Below, in pieces: positions 39,848-49,433 of a DNA stretch of 64,000 bases (position 1 is its first letter; each line of letters opens with the position of its first letter). Source of the stretch: Marinobacter sp. BGYM27 (GTDB lineage Bacteria; Pseudomonadota; Gammaproteobacteria; Pseudomonadales; Oleiphilaceae); the NCBI GenBank assembly GCA_025153445.1, contig JANZNS010000003.1, positions 248,001 through 312,000 on the forward strand, written 5' to 3'. The position numbers were made by a program, and so were the translations under genes. The notes below the pieces were generated by a model. It did no database searches and had not been told where the DNA came from. It saw only the letters and a program-made list of their open reading frames with translations.

Positions 39848-40621
39848 TCAGGCCAGCCCCTTCCAGAGCCCGACACAACTGATCAGCAAGAGCACACAAC
39901 CCAGTAACCGGAAGAACACCGGCGTTTCTGCTGTCAACATTTTCTCGTGGAACCGCAAGCCAATGATGTGTCCGATCGCTGCACAGGGCAGCAGCCACAG
40001 GTGGTGGATCAACTGCAGATCCACATCGGCATAGATAAACGCCGCCATCTTGATTGTGACCAGAATGAACCAGAGCGCAAACAGCGTGTCCCTCAGTTTT
40101 TCTTTCGGCAGATGCTGGGCCACAACGGCAATGATCAGCGGCGCGCCAATAAGGGAGGTGCCGCTGATGTACCCGCCCAGCATCAGGAAGATCGTATCCA
40201 CCACTTTGCTGTTACTGCGAAAGGGCCGATTCAGAATATAGGACACCGCATAGAGCGACACGATGCCGAAGATGATCGCGCTCATGATATTGGCGGGCAG
40301 CGTCAGCAGGCCGAAAACGCCAATCAGCTTGGGCACAATCATGATACCCAGAATGCGCCACAGGTAAGGCCAGTCGACGGTGCCCCCCTCCGGTCGGCTG
40401 GCCGCTTTCGGTCCCCGGTTATTCACCACAATCGTCAGTGACGAGAACACCAGCAGATGCACCGCGATCAGCGGCAGGAATATCAGCGGGTCATTGACCA
40501 CCAGCAACAGAAACGGCAAAGACAACACCGCGCCGCCAAACCCCAGCCCTGAGCGGACAAAGCCGCTCCAGACAAAAATGAGCCCAATTAACACATACTG
40601 AAAAAGTGACAGATCTGCCAT
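39848..40621 (-). CDS. TauE/SafE family permease
   Basis: Inner-membrane protein of 257 aa with about eight helices. The family N-terminus YVLIGLIFVWSGFVRSGLGF and GGAVLSLPFLLLVVNDPLI is clear, and the second repeat has LMLGGYISGTSLIGAPLIIA. Members move sulfite, sulfonates or other organic anions. It is 131 bp upstream of the SDR gene on the same strand; the 170-bp gap on its other side is shared with the divergent amidohydrolase operon. Confidence 0.88.
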   Translation of the reverse strand: MADLSLFQYVLIGLIFVWSGFVRSGLGFGGAVLSLPFLLLVVNDPLIFLPLIAVHLLVFSSLTIVVNNRGPKAASRPEGGTVDWPYLWRILGIMIVPKLIGVFGLLTLPANIMSAIIFGIVSLYAVSYILNRPFRSNSKVVDTIFLMLGGYISGTSLIGAPLIIAVVAQHLPKEKLRDTLFALWFILVTIKMAAFIYADVDLQLIHHLWLLPCAAIGHIIGLRFHEKMLTAETPVFFRLLGCVLLLISCVGLWKGLA

Positions 40622-40791
40622 GGTGTCCTAGCTTGGAAAAGTGCGATCAAAAAACGACCGAGTTTAATCATCCACACAATGGATTGATACCCACTGATTG
40701 AGGTGCGTCATGACAGGCACCGGGAACTTAGCTTGATCCCGAACACTGTCGAGGCACCCTTGTAAGCAGTCGCCAGGAAGGACAGGCTCGA

Positions 40792-41583
40792 GTGAGTGTT
40801 CAGAGTAGTGGTACCGATCCGGTTACCCTGACCGAACCAGACATCCAGCATGCGGACAGTGAGGTTACCTGCCTGCAAGGCCACACTGTGGTTCTGGTTT
40901 GCGAGCATGCGTCAAATCACATTCCGGACGAATTTCATTCGCTCGGTCTCAGTCACGAGCAACAACTCAGCCATATCGCCTGGGATCCGGGTGCCTTGGG
41001 CGTCGCGCGGCATCTTGCTGACATGGCAGGCGCGACACTGGTCGACTGTGAAACCTCCCGCCTGGTTTATGACTGCAACCGCCCACCGGATGCGCCGGAT
41101 GCCATGCCGCAGCAGAGCGAAATCCACCGCATCCCCGGTAACCAGAATCTGAAAGATCGCGATCGTCAATACCGCATTGATCACTACTACAGGCCGTTTG
41201 AACAGCGTGTGGTGACGGCATTATCCCAGGCAGCCGCTACCGGATTGCCCGTGGTGATTGTCACCATCCATAGCTTTACCCCGGTCTACCGCGGCCATGA
41301 GCGCAGCACCCAAATTGGCATTTTGCACGACAGTGACACCCGGCTGGCTGACTCATTATTGCGCACGGCAGACCGCCACACCCCTTTATTGGTTCACCGT
41401 AATCAACCCTATAGCCCAACTGATGGCGTCACCCATACCCTGCTGCGCCATGGCATAGAAAATGCCTTTATGAATGTGATGATCGAGATCCGCAATGATT
41501 TGATCACTTCGGAACACCAACAGCAGGCTATGGCTGTGATGTTATCGGGTTGGCTCACTCACGCATTGAACGAGGTCGGATGA
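40792..41583 (+). CDS. N-formylglutamate amidohydrolase family enzyme
   Basis: Zinc-dependent amidohydrolase of 263 aa. Metal and substrate motifs are VLVCEHASNHIPDEF (about residues 34-48), the ETSRLVYDCNRPPDAPDAMP arginine loop, TIHSFTPVYRG (His near 160) and NVMIEIRNDLI (Glu near 230). Classical members split N-formylglutamate in histidine breakdown, but no hut genes are near; here it heads a TRAP and gamma-glutamylation cluster, suggesting it hydrolyses a glutamyl- or acyl-amide. GTG 40792 follows AGGAAGGACAGG. Its stop overlaps the next start. Confidence 0.86.
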   Translation: MSVQSSGTDPVTLTEPDIQHADSEVTCLQGHTVVLVCEHASNHIPDEFHSLGLSHEQQLSHIAWDPGALGVARHLADMAGATLVDCETSRLVYDCNRPPDAPDAMPQQSEIHRIPGNQNLKDRDRQYRIDHYYRPFEQRVVTALSQAAATGLPVVIVTIHSFTPVYRGHERSTQIGILHDSDTRLADSLLRTADRHTPLLVHRNQPYSPTDGVTHTLLRHGIENAFMNVMIEIRNDLITSEHQQQAMAVMLSGWLTHALNEVG

Positions 41584-42089
41584 TGTCGCCTTTCGTCAGC
41601 GGGTATATCCGCTTTGTGGACGCAGTGAACTACCGCATCGGCCGGTTTGTGATGTACGGCATATTCATCATGGTCGGCATCCTGCTGTGGTCATCCATCT
41701 CAAAAACGTTCTTTTTGCCATCGCTATGGACCCTGGAAGCCGCCCAGTTTGCCATGGTGGCCTATTACATCCTGGGGGGGCCCTACTCTATTCAACTCGG
41801 CTCCAACGTGCGGATGGACCTGTTTTATGGCGACTGGTCCGTTCGCAAAAAAGCCTGGTTTGATGTGTTTACCGTGCTGGTGCTGATTTTCTATCTCGGC
41901 GTGCTGCTCTATGGCGCCTGGGACAGCACAAGTTATTCACTTCAGTATGGCGAGCGCAGCCCGTCTGCGTGGCGCCCGTATATGTGGCCGATCAAGATGG
42001 TGATGTGCGTCGGCTTCGCGCTCATGTTGTTGCAGGCGGTGTCTGAACTGTTCAAGGACATTGCACGCATTCGGGGAGAAGACGTCTGA
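41583..42089 (+). CDS. TRAP transporter small permease (DctQ)
   Basis: Four-helix small membrane subunit of a TRAP transporter, 168 aa. Typical features are RFVMYGIFIMVGILLWSSIS, LEAAQFAMVAYYILGGPYSI, SNVRMDLFYGDWSVRKKAWF and SAWRPYMWPIKMVMCVGFAL. ATG 41583 keeps 7 nt to the GAGG site; ATG 41580, overlapping the previous stop, is an alternative. Overlaps dctM by 1 nt. Works with DctM and a periplasmic binding protein to import an anionic solute with sodium. Confidence 0.9.
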   Translation: MSPFVSGYIRFVDAVNYRIGRFVMYGIFIMVGILLWSSISKTFFLPSLWTLEAAQFAMVAYYILGGPYSIQLGSNVRMDLFYGDWSVRKKAWFDVFTVLVLIFYLGVLLYGAWDSTSYSLQYGERSPSAWRPYMWPIKMVMCVGFALMLLQAVSELFKDIARIRGEDV

Positions 42090-43411
42090 TGTCTTACGAT
42101 CTCATCGCCATTTTCATGTTTGCCTCCATGATGCTGATGCTGATGACCGGCCAGCGCGTCTTCGGCGCGATCGGCGCTGTGGCCGCCGCTGCGGCATTGG
42201 CTCTGTGGGGCACGGGGGGCTCCGACATCCCCTTCTCGTCTGCGATGAAACTGATGAACTGGTATCCGCTACTGACCCTGCCGATGTTCATCTTCATGGG
42301 GTATGTGCTGTCGGAATCCAAGATCGCCGATGATCTGTACAAGATGTTCCATGTATGGATGGGGCCGGTACACGGAGGGCTCGCCATTGGCACCATCGGT
42401 TTGATGGTGCTGGTGTCGGCGATGAACGGATTGTCCGTCGCCGGCATGGCGATTGGCGCAACCATCGCCCTGCCCGAGCTCCTGCGGCGGGGCTACGACA
42501 AGCGCATGGTGACCGGCGTCATACAGGCCGGCTCGTCACTGGGCATACTGGTGCCACCGTCAGTGGTGCTGGTGCTTTACGCCATGATCGCACGGCAACC
42601 GGTCGGCCAGCTCTGGCTTGCAGGCGTTGTGCCGGGGCTGATTATGGCGGCTATGTTCATTATCTATATCGCAGTGCGCTGTCGCATGCAGCCAGAGCTG
42701 GGGCCGGTGTTACCAGAAGAAGAGCGTCAGGTGAGCCTCGGCGAAAAACTGCGCCTGCTGCGGGCCGGTATTCTGCCGATCGTGATATTTGCCACCATGA
42801 TGGTGCCCTTCGTCAAAGGCTGGACCAGCCTGGTGGAGAGTTCGGCGATTGGCGCCATGGCAGCCTTCGTGGCGGCGATCATCAAGCGCCGGATGAATCG
42901 CAAAGTGTTTGAAGTTTCGGTACGCCAGACCCTGGCGATTTCCTGCATGTTCATGTGGATCATTCTCGCTGCCCTGGGCTTTGGCGCAGTGTTTGATGGA
43001 TTGGGTGCGGTCAAGGCAATCGAAACCCTGTTTACCGAACAGCTCGGCCTCAACCCCTGGATGATACTGATCCTGATGCAGCTTTCATTTCTGCTGATGG
43101 GCACGTTTCTGGACGACACCGCCATGCTGGTGATCGTCGCACCACTCTATGTGCCGCTGGTCGGCGCACTGGGGTTCGATCTGGTCTGGTACGGCATTCT
43201 GTACACCATCACCACGCAGATCGCCTATATGACCCCGCCATTTGGCTACAACCTGTTTCTGATGCGCGCCATGGCACCACCCGAGATCAGCCTGCGCGAC
43301 ATCTATGGCTCTATCTTTCCGTTTGTCTGCGTCATGTTGGTCGCACTGGCACTGATCATGGCGTTTCCGCAGATCGCACTCTGGTTACCGGAAACCGTCT
43401 ATAACAAGTAA
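42089..43411 (+). CDS. TRAP transporter large permease (DctM)
   Basis: Transport subunit of 440 aa with about twelve helices. Family blocks include MTGQRVFGAIGAVAAAAALA, LPMFIFMGYVLSESKIADD, AGSSLGILVPPSVVLVLYAM, MGTFLDDTAMLVIVAPLYVP and QIAYMTPPFGYNLFLMRAMA. Start overlaps the DctQ stop by 1 nt. A 133-bp gap with three small hairpins separates it from the binding-protein gene. Confidence 0.94.
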   Translation: MSYDLIAIFMFASMMLMLMTGQRVFGAIGAVAAAAALALWGTGGSDIPFSSAMKLMNWYPLLTLPMFIFMGYVLSESKIADDLYKMFHVWMGPVHGGLAIGTIGLMVLVSAMNGLSVAGMAIGATIALPELLRRGYDKRMVTGVIQAGSSLGILVPPSVVLVLYAMIARQPVGQLWLAGVVPGLIMAAMFIIYIAVRCRMQPELGPVLPEEERQVSLGEKLRLLRAGILPIVIFATMMVPFVKGWTSLVESSAIGAMAAFVAAIIKRRMNRKVFEVSVRQTLAISCMFMWIILAALGFGAVFDGLGAVKAIETLFTEQLGLNPWMILILMQLSFLLMGTFLDDTAMLVIVAPLYVPLVGALGFDLVWYGILYTITTQIAYMTPPFGYNLFLMRAMAPPEISLRDIYGSIFPFVCVMLVALALIMAFPQIALWLPETVYNK

Positions 43412-43453
43412 AACGGCAGATTGATTTGAGTCAGCGTCATAACACGAGTGAGT

Positions 43454-43516
43454 GGGCGAGCGCCCTTTCGGTCGAGAACGAGTGTTGAGTAACACCCCGG
43501 AAGCAACCCCGCTTCC
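43454..43516 (+). repeat. Cluster of three small hairpins between dctM and dctP
   Basis: GGGCGAGCGCCC (43454-43465), GTGTT-GAGT-AACAC (43482-43495) and GGAAGC-AACCCC-GCTTCC (43499-43516) each self-pair. The first is followed by TTT. They may be an RNA processing or 5'-protecting element upstream of the binding-protein gene. Confidence 0.45.
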
Positions 43517-43544
43517 ATAACAAGCGTCAGTCAAGGAGAGCACC

Positions 43545-44585
43545 ATGACCACAAGACGTAAGTTCCTCGCATCCGCAGCCGCTATGGCGGGCGCAGCCGC
43601 GCTTACTCCCCCCAAGCTCTATGCCCAGCAGCCCAAAATACGATGGCGATTGCAAACCTACGCCGGGCCGGCGCTCGCCGAGCATGTCATCAAACCTGCG
43701 ATCGACAGCTTCAACCGCATCGCCGGAAACGAGATGCAGATCGAGCTCTATTTTGCCGATCAACTCGTCCCCACCGGCGAACTCTTCCGGGCGATGCAGA
43801 AAGGCACCATCGATGCGGTGCAGTCTGATGATGACTCCATGGCATCCCCCACCGAAGTAACGGTTTTCGGTGGCTACTTCCCCTTTGCCAGCCGCTACTC
43901 ACTGGATGTGCCAGTGCTGTTCAACCAGTACGGGCTCAACGAAATCTGGGACCAGGAGTATTCCAAAGTCGGCGTAAAACACCTGTCTGCCGGTGCCTGG
44001 GACCCCTGCCATTTTGCCACCAAGGAACCGATCAACAGCCTGGCGGATCTCAAGGGCAAGCGCGTGTTCACCTTCCCCACGGCGGGCCGGTTCATGAGCC
44101 AGTTCGGCGTGGTGCCGGTGCAGCTGCCCTGGGAAGACATTGAAGTCGCAGTTCAGACCGGTGAGCTCGACGGCATCGCCTGGTCCGGCATTACCGAGGA
44201 CTACACGGTTGGCTGGGCGGATGTCACAAACTACTTCCTCACCAACAACATTTCCGGCGCCTGGGCAGGCTCGTTCTTCGCCAACATGGACCGTTACAAC
44301 GAGCTGCCCGATCACCTGAAAGAACTGCTCAAGCTGACAATGGACAGTTCACACTACTACCGGCAGTGGTGGTACTGGGGTGGCGAGGCCAAGCTGCGTA
44401 CTGACGGCAGCAAGATGAAGCTGACCACCATCCCCGATGCTGAGTGGGCGGAAGTCGAGAAGGCGGCCCACACCTTCTGGGATGAAATCGCAAAGGAGTC
44501 GGAAACCAAGGCGAAGGTGGTGAAAATCCTCAAAGAGTACAACGCAAAAATGGAGAAGGCGGGGAGGCCTTATCGTTACACCTGA
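43545..44585 (+). CDS. TRAP transporter substrate-binding protein (DctP), Tat-type signal
   Basis: Periplasmic solute receptor of 346 aa. The N-terminus MTTRRKFLASAAAMAGAAAL has a twin-arginine motif, so it is probably exported folded; mature part begins after YAQQ. DctP-fold blocks are IRWRLQTYAGPALAEHVIKP, FADQLVPTGELFRAMQKGTI, LADLKGKRVFTFPTAGRFMS (the Arg that usually binds a carboxylate) and TGELDGIAWSGITEDYTVGW. Aromatic-rich HYYRQWWYWGGEAKL may shape the ligand pocket. CAAGGAGAG precedes ATG 43545. The ligand is not predictable from the motif. Confidence 0.92.
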   Translation: MTTRRKFLASAAAMAGAAALTPPKLYAQQPKIRWRLQTYAGPALAEHVIKPAIDSFNRIAGNEMQIELYFADQLVPTGELFRAMQKGTIDAVQSDDDSMASPTEVTVFGGYFPFASRYSLDVPVLFNQYGLNEIWDQEYSKVGVKHLSAGAWDPCHFATKEPINSLADLKGKRVFTFPTAGRFMSQFGVVPVQLPWEDIEVAVQTGELDGIAWSGITEDYTVGWADVTNYFLTNNISGAWAGSFFANMDRYNELPDHLKELLKLTMDSSHYYRQWWYWGGEAKLRTDGSKMKLTTIPDAEWAEVEKAAHTFWDEIAKESETKAKVVKILKEYNAKMEKAGRPYRYT

Positions 44586-44604
44586 TTTGCTGTGCAAACC
44601 TGTC

Positions 44605-44648
44605 GCGTTCAGGGGCGATGGCCATGGGTCTGATACGCCCCTGAACGC
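44605..44648 (+). terminator. Long intercistronic hairpin after dctP
   Basis: GCGTTCAGGGGCG pairs perfectly with CGCCCCTGAACGC, a 13-bp stem around an 18-nt loop, 20 nt past the dctP stop and 46 nt before the ligase gene. No T tract follows, suggesting mRNA stabilisation or partial termination rather than a full stop. Confidence 0.65.
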
Positions 44649-44693
44649 CCTGAATCTGTACTTCCAGAACAACAGACTTTCCGGAGCCGTGAG

Positions 44694-46061
44694 ATGGCAG
44701 CTCAACTGTCCTTTAGAGAACTGAAGAAGTGCGTCGAAGACGGCACGATTGATACGGTCGTCGGCGCGATCCCGGATATGCAGGGGCGCCTCATGGGCAA
44801 GCGTTTCCAGGCGCAGTATTTTATCGACACCGCATGGGAAGAATCCCACTGCTGCAAATACCTGGTGGCGACCGACCTCGAAATGACCACCGTTGAAGAC
44901 TACGCGTCCACCAGCTGGTCTGCAGGCTACGGCGACTATGTGATGAAGCCGGATCTAACCACCCTGCGTAAGCTGCCCTGGCTGGAAGGCACGGCATTTG
45001 TACTGTGCGACCTGATCGATCACGTGACCCACGAGCCCGTGCCTCACTCGCCCCGCGCCGTCCTGAAAAAACAGCTTGAACGTCTATCAGCCATGGGCCT
45101 GCAGATGACCACGGCTACCGAACTGGAGTTTTTCATCTTCCGCGAAACCTTCGAAGATATGCAGAAGCGCCAGTATCACCAGATGACGCCCGTCAGTCCG
45201 TACAACGAGGATTACCACATTTTCCAGACCACCCGGGAGGAAGATGTCATGCGGCCAATCCGCAACGGGCTCTTCGACGCGGGGATAGACGTCGAAAGCA
45301 GCAAGGGCGAAGCGGATGCCGGCCAGGCCGAACTGAACATCCACTACTCCGATCCGCTGAACATGGCCGACACCCACGTGCTGGTCAAAAACTCGGTTAA
45401 GGAAATCGCCTGGCAACACGGCCGCAGCGTCACGTTTATGGCCAAGTGGAGCCACAATGCCGCCGGCTCTTCCAGCCATATCCACCAGTCCCTGTCAGAC
45501 AAAGACGGCAAATCGGTGTTCTACGATCCAAACGGCACCCACGGCATGTCCGAAACGATGGAGCATGCGCTAGCCGGGCTGCTGAAGCACGCCAACGAGA
45601 CCACGCTCTTTCTTGCGCCCTATATCAATTCCTACAAACGTTTTGCAGCGGGTACCTTTGCCCCCACCAGCACCGTCTGGTCGGTGGACAACCGCACGGC
45701 GGGCTACCGGGTTGTCGCACCGGACTCCGAAGCTGTAAGAGTCGAGTGCCGCATTGGCGGCTCAGATCTCAACCCGTATCTGGCGCTGGCCTCACAGATT
45801 GCAGCGACCATCGCGGGTATTGAAGGCAAGTTGAAACTCGAACCCGAATTCTCCGGCAATGCTTATGGTGCTGAATCAGAACGCAGCATTCCTGCCACGC
45901 TGCGCGCCGCAACCGAAGCGCTGCGTCACTCCACCATGCTGCGCGAAGCCATGGGGGATGATGTCATTGATCACTACGTCCGCGCAGCCGAGTGGGAACA
46001 GGAAGATTTCGACCGAGTAGTCACCGATTACGAAGTCAAACGGGGATTTGAACAAGCCTGA
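44694..46061 (+). CDS. Glutamine synthetase family ligase (gamma-glutamylamide synthetase-like)
   Basis: ATP-dependent amide ligase of 455 aa. GS-type motifs are present: TATELEFFIFRETFE (metal Glu), KGEADAGQAELNIHYSDP, AKWSHNAAGSSSHIHQSLSD (metal His), LAPYINSYKRFAAGTFAPTS and RVECRIGGSDLNPYLALASQ. The sequence is closer to PuuA/GlnA4-like enzymes that glutamylate polyamines, ethanolamine or amino alcohols than to GlnA; there is no adenylylation-type Tyr near the end. The neighbours (TRAP import, aldehyde and alcohol dehydrogenases, amidohydrolase) support a catabolic role. The acceptor amine is unknown. Confidence 0.88.
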   Translation: MAAQLSFRELKKCVEDGTIDTVVGAIPDMQGRLMGKRFQAQYFIDTAWEESHCCKYLVATDLEMTTVEDYASTSWSAGYGDYVMKPDLTTLRKLPWLEGTAFVLCDLIDHVTHEPVPHSPRAVLKKQLERLSAMGLQMTTATELEFFIFRETFEDMQKRQYHQMTPVSPYNEDYHIFQTTREEDVMRPIRNGLFDAGIDVESSKGEADAGQAELNIHYSDPLNMADTHVLVKNSVKEIAWQHGRSVTFMAKWSHNAAGSSSHIHQSLSDKDGKSVFYDPNGTHGMSETMEHALAGLLKHANETTLFLAPYINSYKRFAAGTFAPTSTVWSVDNRTAGYRVVAPDSEAVRVECRIGGSDLNPYLALASQIAATIAGIEGKLKLEPEFSGNAYGAESERSIPATLRAATEALRHSTMLREAMGDDVIDHYVRAAEWEQEDFDRVVTDYEVKRGFEQA

Positions 46062-46107
46062 GGATACGCCGGCGCGGACACCCTACCAAAAGGAGCAGGA
46101 CAGCTTT

Positions 46108-47487
46108 ATGAGTGCAACGATTCAATGCCTATCGCCCATCGACGGCTCGGTTTATGTCGAGCGCCCCACCCTGTCTCTTGAGACCGCAACCGTTGCGGTT
46201 TCTGCCGCTAAAGCGGCACAACCGGCCTGGGCGGCCCTGCCACTGAAAGAACGGATTGCACGGGTGCGCGACGGTATCGCCCGCCTCGGCGAGATGAATG
46301 CCGACATCGTTGAAAAGCTGGCCTGGCAAATGGGGAGACCGGTGCGCTATGGCGGCGAATTTGGCGGTGTGAACGAACGCGCCAGCATGATGGCTGATCT
46401 TGCAGAAGAAGGACTGGCGCCCATCGAAATCGAAAATAACGAGGCGTTTCGCCGCTACATCAAGCGGGAACCTCACGGCGTAGTCCTGGTTGTCGCGCCC
46501 TGGAACTACCCGTACATGACGGCGATCAACACCGTGGTACCGGCACTCATCGCCGGCAACGCCGTGTTCCTCAAGCACGCATCGCAAACACCGCTGGTAG
46601 GGGAACATATTGCCAGTGCATTTCATGCGGCCGGAGTGCCGGAGGCGATATTCCAGAATGTGTTCCTGTCCCACGACACTACCTCTGCCCTGATCGCCGA
46701 CAAGGCCTTTGGCTTCGTCAACTTCACCGGTTCAGTGGGTGGTGGCCAGGCAATGGAGGTGGCCGCTGCGGGCACCTTCACCGGTCTCGGACTGGAGCTT
46801 GGCGGCAAAGACCCCGGCTATGTCATGGAGGATGCCGATCTGGATGCGGCGGTGGATACGTTGATCGACGGCGCCATGTTCAACTCCGGCCAATGCTGCT
46901 GCGGTATTGAGCGCATCTATGTCGCCGAAAGCCTGTTTGATGCCTTTGTCGAAAAAGCCGTTGCGATTGTCAGTGCCTACAAGCTGGGCAATCCGCTGGA
47001 TGAACAGACCACGCTCGGACCGATGGCCCACACCCGGTTTGCGGATCTGGTTCGCGAACAGACCGCAGAGGCAGTGGCGGCTGGCGCGAAGGCCCTGATC
47101 GACCCATCGCTCTTTCCCGATCAGGGCGGCGCCTACCTGATGCCCCAGATTCTTGTGGATGTCGATCACTCCATGCGCGTGATGCGGGAAGAATCCTTCG
47201 GGCCAGTAGTGGGCATCATGAAAGTCAAAAATGACGACGAAGCCATTGCCCTGATGAACGACAGCGAATTTGGCCTGACCGCATCGCTGTGGACACAGGA
47301 CATCGACCGCGCCGAGCGTATTGCCAACCAGATTGAAACCGGCACGGTATTTATGAACCGCTGCGACTATCTGGACCCCGCACTGTGCTGGACCGGTTGT
47401 AAAAATACCGGCCGCGGTGGCGGGCTGTCAGTGATTGGCTACCACAACCTGACCCGACCCAAATCCTTCTATCTCAAAAGGGGCTGA
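46108..47487 (+). CDS. NAD(P)-dependent aldehyde dehydrogenase
   Basis: Aldehyde dehydrogenase of 459 aa. Motifs: VVAPWNYPYMTAINTVVPAL, FTGSVGGGQAMEVAAAG (cofactor), LELGGKDPGYVMEDADLDAA with the general-base Glu, and NSGQCCCGIERIYV where the catalytic Cys lies within an unusual run of three. MREESFGPVVGIMKV and NTGRGGGLSVIGYHNLTRPK close the fold. ATG 46108 follows AGGAGCAGGACAGC; the frame reads back to 46048 inside the ligase gene. In the cluster it would oxidise the aldehyde made by the next gene. Confidence 0.92.
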   Translation: MSATIQCLSPIDGSVYVERPTLSLETATVAVSAAKAAQPAWAALPLKERIARVRDGIARLGEMNADIVEKLAWQMGRPVRYGGEFGGVNERASMMADLAEEGLAPIEIENNEAFRRYIKREPHGVVLVVAPWNYPYMTAINTVVPALIAGNAVFLKHASQTPLVGEHIASAFHAAGVPEAIFQNVFLSHDTTSALIADKAFGFVNFTGSVGGGQAMEVAAAGTFTGLGLELGGKDPGYVMEDADLDAAVDTLIDGAMFNSGQCCCGIERIYVAESLFDAFVEKAVAIVSAYKLGNPLDEQTTLGPMAHTRFADLVREQTAEAVAAGAKALIDPSLFPDQGGAYLMPQILVDVDHSMRVMREESFGPVVGIMKVKNDDEAIALMNDSEFGLTASLWTQDIDRAERIANQIETGTVFMNRCDYLDPALCWTGCKNTGRGGGLSVIGYHNLTRPKSFYLKRG

Positions 47488-47489
47488 TA

Positions 47490-48635
47490 ATGACTGTCTC
47501 CGCAAACTGGTCTTACCCCACCGCCATTCGTTTCGGCGCGGGTCGGATCGCTGAAATTGGTGAATGCTGCGCAGCAGCTGGTATTAAAAAGCCCTTGTTG
47601 GTGACGGATAGCGGGCTTGCAAGTCTGCCGATCACCCAGAGAACGCTTGATCTGATGGAACGCGCCGGACTGGGCCGCGCCATGTTTTCGGAGGTCGACC
47701 CCAACCCCACTGAAATCAATATGGAAGCCGGCCTGAAAGTCTATCGCGACGGCGGCCACGACGGAGTGATCGCCTTCGGCGGCGGTTCCGGGCTCGACCT
47801 TGGCAAACTACTGGCATTTATGGCAGGTCAAACCCGGCCAGTGTGGGACTTCGAGGATATCGGTGACTGGTGGACCCGGGCCAATGCCGATGCTATCGCG
47901 CCCATCATCGCTGTGCCGACAACGGCCGGAACCGGCTCAGAGGTTGGGCGGGCCAGCGTGATAGTGAACAGCCAGACCCATGTGAAGAAGATTATTTTTC
48001 ATCCCAAAATTCTCCCGACGATCGTCATTTCAGATCCAGAGCTCACTGTCGGCATGCCGCCGTTCATCACCGCTGGCACGGGAATGGATGCGTTTATTCA
48101 TTGCTTCGAGGCCTTCTGCTCACCTCACTTCCACCCCATGAGTCAGGGCATTGCGCTGGAGGGCATGCGCCTGGTGAAGGAGAACCTGCCCCGTGTCTAC
48201 GAGGATGCCGGTGATATTGAAGCCAGGGGCAACATGCTGGTCGCCGCCGCTATGGGAGCCGTCGCCTTCCAGAAGGGGTTGGGGGCTACCCATGCGGTCT
48301 CCCATTCGGTCGGCGCGATTTACAACACCCATCACGGCATGACCAACGCAGTCGTTCTGCCCTCTGTCATCAAGATGAACCACCCCGCCATCGAAAACCG
48401 GGTGATCGACATTACCCATTACCTCGGCATTGCCGGCGGGTTCGACGGCTTTACCCGTTTCATCATGACATTGCGGGAAACGCTCAAAGTACCCGAGCGG
48501 CTTCGGGATATGGGCGTGGGAACAGACCGGATTGACGAGATGACCAAAATGGCACTGGAAGATCCAAGCGCAGGCGGCAACCCGATCAAGATGACCACAG
48601 AAAATACCCGCGCTTTGTTTGAAGTCTGTATCTGA
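47490..48635 (+). CDS. Iron-containing alcohol dehydrogenase
   Basis: Group III metal-dependent alcohol dehydrogenase of 381 aa. NAD site IAFGGGSGLDLGKLLAFMAG near residue 92; metal ligands are Asp and His in GTGMDAFIHCFEAFC, His in THAVSHSVGA and His in THHGMTNAVVLPSVIKMN, so all four are present. It starts 2 bp after the aldehyde dehydrogenase stop and is last in the cluster. Together with that gene it gives an alcohol-to-acid oxidation step. Substrate unknown. Confidence 0.92.
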   Translation: MTVSANWSYPTAIRFGAGRIAEIGECCAAAGIKKPLLVTDSGLASLPITQRTLDLMERAGLGRAMFSEVDPNPTEINMEAGLKVYRDGGHDGVIAFGGGSGLDLGKLLAFMAGQTRPVWDFEDIGDWWTRANADAIAPIIAVPTTAGTGSEVGRASVIVNSQTHVKKIIFHPKILPTIVISDPELTVGMPPFITAGTGMDAFIHCFEAFCSPHFHPMSQGIALEGMRLVKENLPRVYEDAGDIEARGNMLVAAAMGAVAFQKGLGATHAVSHSVGAIYNTHHGMTNAVVLPSVIKMNHPAIENRVIDITHYLGIAGGFDGFTRFIMTLRETLKVPERLRDMGVGTDRIDEMTKMALEDPSAGGNPIKMTTENTRALFEVCI

Positions 48636-48659
48636 TAGCGAAAGGTCAGTGGCTGCGCT

Positions 48660-49433
48660 CTAAGGCGTGTACCAGTCACCGGAAGCCACGAAGTGGGGGT
48701 TCAGCACATCCTGCTTGCCGTAGAGTAGTGGGCTGCCATCAAGCTGGCACACCTTGCCACCGGCTGCCGCCAGCACCGCCTGAGCGGCACCGGTGTCCCA
48801 TTCGCTGGTTGGTCCCAGCCGCGGGTAGATATCCGCTGCGCCTTCAGCAATACGACAGAACTTCAGTGAACTGCCCGCCTGCATTAGCCGGTGACTCCCC
48901 AGCGCATCGATAAACTTGCGGGTATCCTCATTAAGATGACTCTTACTTGCCATCACCCTTTTCTGATCCGGCGGCACAGCCACCTGGATAGGCCGGGTCT
49001 GACCCCGGCTATCACGCTTCCAGGCGCCCTTACCCAGCACGCCCCAGAATGCTTCACCCAATGCAGGCGCTGTGACCACGCCCAGTATCGGCACCCCGTT
49101 TTCGATCAGTGCGATATTAACCGTAAACTCACCCGTGCGACTGACAAAATCCTTGGTGCCATCAATCGGATCGACCAGCCAGAACCGGTGCCAGCCTTTA
49201 CGCTCGTCCCAGGGCGCATTGGCGGATTCTTCCGACAACACCGGAATATCACCTGCCAGTTCAGCCAGTCCGTTTACGATAATATGGTGAGACGCCAGAT
49301 CAGCCGAAGTCACAGGCGACTCATCGGCCTTGTGATCAACCTCGAAATCCGTCTGGTAAATGGCCATGACTTTCTGGCTGGCAAGATCGGCGAGTTTCAG
49401 GAGTGCAGGAAAGTAGGAGGAAACCGGCGTCAT
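48660..49433 (-). CDS. cysQ: 3'(2'),5'-bisphosphate nucleotidase
   Basis: Inositol-monophosphatase superfamily enzyme of 257 aa that dephosphorylates PAP, keeping sulfate assimilation running. Metal motifs are SEESANAPW, WLVDPIDGTKDFVSRTGEFT and the C-terminal PTSEWDTGAAQAVLAAAGG. The KADESPVTSADLASHHII segment is CysQ-like. ATG 49433 is chosen by family start; the frame extends to 49520 without support. Convergent to the dehydrogenase gene with 24 bp between. Confidence 0.9.
   Translation of the reverse strand: MTPVSSYFPALLKLADLASQKVMAIYQTDFEVDHKADESPVTSADLASHHIIVNGLAELAGDIPVLSEESANAPWDERKGWHRFWLVDPIDGTKDFVSRTGEFTVNIALIENGVPILGVVTAPALGEAFWGVLGKGAWKRDSRGQTRPIQVAVPPDQKRVMASKSHLNEDTRKFIDALGSHRLMQAGSSLKFCRIAEGAADIYPRLGPTSEWDTGAAQAVLAAAGGKVCQLDGSPLLYGKQDVLNPHFVASGDWYTP

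Follow-up and report, generated by a model that had tools for sequence, protein, structure and literature searches.

The window, a stretch of 64 kb of DNA from Marinobacter sp. BGYM27, contains at positions 40792–48635 seven intact open reading frames (ORFs), all on the + strand and with seven Pfam family matches. The first encodes an FGase-family amidohydrolase, assigned as a gamma-glutamylglycine amidohydrolase (GGAH; 40792–41583; PF05013, E-value 1.5e-42), and is followed by genes for a TRAP transporter, namely the small permease DctQ (EtoV; 41580–42089; PF04290, 1.8e-21), the large permease DctM (EtoW; 42089–43411; PF06808, 2.1e-65) and the solute-binding protein DctP (EtoX; 43545–44585), which is predicted by homology to bind ethanolamine. 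Further downstream are genes for a GS-like ligase (Gln-synt_C; 44694–46061; PF00120, 4.5e-99), the putative ethanolamine gamma-glutamylase; an aldehyde dehydrogenase (ALDH; 46108–47487; PF00171, Aldedh, 7.5e-117), the putative gamma-glutamylacetaldehydeamide dehydrogenase; and an iron-containing alcohol dehydrogenase (Fe-ADH; 47490–48635; PF00465, 4.8e-47, and PF25137, 2.6e-42), the putative gamma-glutamylethanolamide dehydrogenase. The DctQ ORF as listed opens at TTG 41550, with an ATG in frame at 41580; for the ALDH gene, TTG 46048 is a possible start and ATG 46108 a more likely one. The amidohydrolase and DctQ genes overlap in an ATGA at about 41580, base 42089 is common to DctQ and DctM, and two bases separate ALDH from Fe-ADH. 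The earlier note had described intact, tightly packed genes on one strand, which holds for strand, intactness and overlaps, but its "tiny gaps" do not describe the 133 bases between DctM and DctP or the 108 bases between DctP and the ligase. The operon is bordered by genes on the opposite strand (TauE/SafE and SDR upstream, CysQ downstream). No promoter-like site was found on the + strand in 40400–48800, and the sigma-54 pattern matched 48 times in the window, against 47.3 matches expected.

The gene set and its order (GGAH, EtoVWX, GS-like ligase, ALDH and Fe-ADH) are those that define an Eto operon. The ethanolamine operon of Phaeobacter sp. MED193 (MED193_10021–10056) comprises, in order of locus tag, RpiR, GGAH, EtoV, EtoW, EtoX, ethanolamine gamma-glutamylase, GAADDH and GETADH; five of its proteins are reported to be raised on phosphorylethanolamine, and the Kd of its EtoX for ethanolamine is given as 7.9 uM (PMC10132767). 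Judged by these locus tags, the order from GGAH to Fe-ADH is the same in the window, whereas the RpiR gene that adjoins GGAH in MED193 has no counterpart nearby. The figure of the MED193 pathway is titled "Predicted," and the genes are described as close kin of those shown to work in Chromohalobacter salexigens and A. tumefaciens C58, for which Vetting et al. (2015) is the source (PMC10132767). The C. salexigens pathway was itself predicted in silico according to PMC6529630; its listed families, PF00120, PF00465, PF00171 and PF05013 (PMC9397018), are also those of the window. Both papers give the same four chemical steps, with an FGase-family protein acting last (PMC6529630; PMC9397018). Compared by description, GlnA4 (SCO1613) of Streptomyces coelicolor shares with the window the gamma-glutamylethanolamide route and a predicted FGase-family end, SCO1615, but the description of GlnA4 names no TRAP transporter, which the window has (PMC6529630).

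Positions 40792–48635 are therefore very probably a gamma-glutamyl ethanolamine utilisation operon, since the MED193 operon has the same order, an EtoX that binds ethanolamine and proteins raised on phosphorylethanolamine. In the proposed pathway, DctP (EtoX) would bind ethanolamine in the periplasm and DctQM would carry it inward; the GS-like ligase would join it to the gamma-carboxyl of glutamate, using ATP; the capped alcohol would be converted to gamma-glutamylglycine by Fe-ADH first and ALDH second; and the FGase-family enzyme would split gamma-glutamylglycine into glutamate and glycine. What is directly established is which genes are present, their order, how far they are conserved and their homology to proteins with roles reported by others; we infer every reaction in Marinobacter sp. 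BGYM27. The earlier note had proposed that an imported amine, amino alcohol or related acid is capped with glutamate, oxidised twice and hydrolysed to glutamate and an amino acid, with ethanolamine to glycine as one fit; the cited accounts assign this route to the operon type, with ethanolamine as the substrate and glycine as the product, so that its reading was essentially right but describes a pathway already published. The action of the amidohydrolase on a pathway substrate, which it had considered new, had likewise appeared in print: a gamma-glutamylglycine amidohydrolase is named there, its activity being a prediction in the accounts cited here. The operon extends to another bacterium the published marine route by which phospholipid head-group nitrogen is recycled.

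Conservation of the gene neighbourhood was surveyed at 80 loci, the best of at least 589 relatives, a set that is, judged by record titles, mostly from Alphaproteobacteria and biased to close relatives of the ligase; counts were made on the 64 loci whose flanks reached at least 5.2 kb on the upstream side of the ligase and 4.2 kb on the downstream side, and 16 with short flanks were left out. Near the ligase, these 64 loci carry an amidohydrolase in 61 cases, Fe-ADH in 61, ALDH in 59, RpiR in 57 and TRAP DctP in 31. The amidohydrolase is missing at L011, L049 and L064. Three of the 16 excluded loci had 5.2 kb upstream (L067 with the amidohydrolase, L003 and L007 without), giving a linkage of 62/67 by upstream flank alone. 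The 10 genomes checked contain just 0 to 3 FGase genes each, and the linkage of amidohydrolase and ligase in 61/64 loci exceeds chance. Conserved linkage, on which the earlier note had staked its reading, is thus kept in this broad set, but the amidohydrolase is absent from two of the five TRAP-linked operons sampled in the window's own family. The lack of a nearby ALDH in 5/64 loci and of a nearby Fe-ADH in 3/64 counts against the ethanolamine operon.

Transport genes vary among the 61 amidohydrolase-linked loci: 31 have TRAP genes, 27 have a single long ORF between amidohydrolase and ligase, and in three (L032, L047 and L062) nothing lies between these two genes. For each permease type, a single representative was compared with family libraries (L026 and L019), and the rest were assigned by identity (88.9–90.1% and 49–77%, respectively); L039, which belongs to the 16 short-flank loci, was also examined for permease type. 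A TIGR00908-like permease occurs in three of the 27 loci (L010, L026 and L052), and the other 24 have the second type. The L026 permease scores 363.8 bits, below the TIGR00908 ethanolamine-permease cut-off of 381.75, and the L019 permease is a generic PF13520 amino acid permease, so that the 24 permeases of the second type give no pointer to ethanolamine. Replacement of TRAP by a permease in 27/64 loci that retain amidohydrolase and ligase, in three of them by one like that of L026 (89–90% identical), argues for the ethanolamine operon; the sub-cut-off score and the 24 permeases of the second type count against it. The import step is modular (TRAP or single permeases) and the chemistry conserved.

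A search of solved structures with the window DctP (phmmer) retrieved 4uab and 4xf5, both of Csal_0678, at an E-value of 4.5e-181, and the next structure at 3e-15; identity to this C. salexigens protein, through which, with the family list, the two organisms were compared, is 80% (Foldseek). The predicted fold reached a pLDDT of 34.7 from the single sequence and 82.5 with a 34-row alignment. At the column where all eight other DctPs of the genome have Arg, the window protein has Phe175, and it falls into the EtoX type, that is, the Csal_0678 group in which the carboxylate Arg is missing. The identity to Csal_0678 and the replacement of Arg by Phe175 both support the ethanolamine operon. The same chemistry could serve another small amino alcohol as natural substrate (2-amino-1-propanol), with a product other than glycine: closely similar amino alcohols cannot be told apart by homology, and there are two entries for Csal_0678, of which 4xf5 reportedly holds another amino alcohol. 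Against this reading, which is improbable, ethanolamine is the ligand reported for two homologues, MED193 EtoX and Csal_0678, the latter described as having no equivalent of the conserved Arg-147 (PMC4646407), and three loci have an ethanolamine-permease-like transporter instead of TRAP. We infer that ethanolamine, not a close amino alcohol, is the natural substrate.

The nearest solved relatives of the ligase are 5dm3 (E-value 1e-190), which we take to be the C. salexigens neighbour Csal_0679, and 11zs. In an alignment with GlnA of the same genome, the ligase has TFAP opposite YEAP of GlnA, with a Phe that at least 76 of the 80 loci share. This Phe stands in place of the Glu of YEAP, the ammonium-site residue of GS, and the loss of Glu fits an amine other than ammonia; TFAP with its conserved Phe is a further argument for the ethanolamine operon. 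GlnA and the window ligase are the two GS-family genes found in the whole genome; there is therefore no separate PuuA, in agreement with the earlier observation, made on the window, that puu genes are absent. Gamma-glutamylation of a polyamine or other amine, in the manner of Puu, Pau or IpuC, is highly unlikely: a GS-like ligase and an ALDH are common to puu, and the ligase does match the PuuA model NF045547, but at 193.2 bits against a cut-off of 650; moreover, the presence of Fe-ADH implies an alcohol as substrate, and DctP is of the Csal_0678 type.

The amidohydrolase is the sole FGase gene found in its genome, and the single solved relative found for it is 2odf (Atu2144; E-value 3.1e-72). 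The name of family PF05013 would suggest the N-formylglutamate deformylase that serves in histidine degradation (HutG), linked here by accident, but this reading was rejected as barely credible, given a score of 23.6 bits against the TIGR02017 cut-off of 278.75 (three FGases elsewhere in genomes with related loci pass at 349–361 bits), the absence of a urocanase match in the whole genome and the linkage in 61/64 loci. The canonical Eut pathway was also discarded: the EutB ammonia-lyase has no match in the genome (G000), the E. coli control being positive, and its absence argues for the ethanolamine operon. With one marker each, urocanase and EutB, the absence of hut and eut genes noted earlier extends to the whole genome. 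The window amidohydrolase is just 56–58% identical to its counterparts in L124 and L125, loci of two genomes of the family, against 79–91% for the other six operon genes, so that this gene evolves faster or has another history than the other six. It carries the conserved residue at each of the 33 alignment columns with at least 95% conservation among 69 rows; this set includes doubtful and truncated rows and, as L089, the window's own gene, and is therefore a weak comparison. A tree of FGase proteins was abandoned on account of doubtful strand (L083, L092), truncated ORFs (L089, L090) and HutG-type rows that formed no clade.

Among 121 sampled genomes of the window's family, the ligase occurs in 6 and a window-like amidohydrolase in 4, of which 3 also carry the ligase, the fourth amidohydrolase being just 32% identical. 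The ligase is absent from all five other genomes of the genus examined, and the operon is therefore sporadic in the genus. Five of the six ligase-bearing genomes have the TRAP-linked operon; in the sixth (G036, 85% complete), only ligase, ALDH and Fe-ADH were found in 14 kb, with no amidohydrolase match. Two genomes with the TRAP-linked operon and a ligase 91–92% identical to that of the window, G061 (by contig number and coordinates the genome of L003, Marinobacter algicola) and G085, contain no PF05013 gene; their other six operon genes are 77–94% identical to the window's, 77% being an Fe-ADH cut by the contig end (L003). Among the 10 genomes searched for FGase genes, those of L003 and L049 (Rhodothermales) had none, and those of L007 and L013 had one high-scoring FGase each, that of L013 being HutG by TIGR02017. 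The absence of an FGase gene from the two genomes with closely similar ligases and from that of L049 counts against the ethanolamine operon, although such absences carry little weight where the genomes are metagenome assemblies (L007, L013 and L049). All five family genomes with the TRAP-linked operon also encode a gamma-glutamyltranspeptidase, a possible substitute for the amidohydrolase. Tentatively, part of the family may have lost, or never had, the amidohydrolase in this operon, with gamma-glutamylglycine split by an unlinked enzyme (e.g., gamma-glutamyltranspeptidase) or kept or exported as the dipeptide, and the window may represent a member with the enzyme and without the usual regulator. 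The variable amidohydrolase raises the question of which enzyme ends the pathway where it is missing.

That regulator, a divergent RpiR gene beside GGAH, is usual but not essential: there is none at the window locus, and GGAH occurs without RpiR also at L004, L032, L047 and L062. The sole RpiR match of the genome adjoins a zwf-like gene, a name that we take from the translated sequence. Among the surveyed loci, L024 and L029 of Kiloniella have amidohydrolase, TRAP and ligase genes with no match to either type of dehydrogenase in the 9 kb downstream. Fe-ADH directly follows the ligase in L042 (10343–11545) and L013 (from 6540), with no ALDH match in the locus, and L007 resembles both in having Fe-ADH after the ligase, the contig ending soon afterward. 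An AraC-family protein was dropped as a candidate operon regulator because the protein most like it in the window genome, at 75% identity, is encoded on a different contig and so shows no link to the operon; in L003 (4647–5804) and L123 (3714–4820, reverse strand), an AraC-family gene lies directly upstream of dctQ, in the place that the amidohydrolase occupies in the window.
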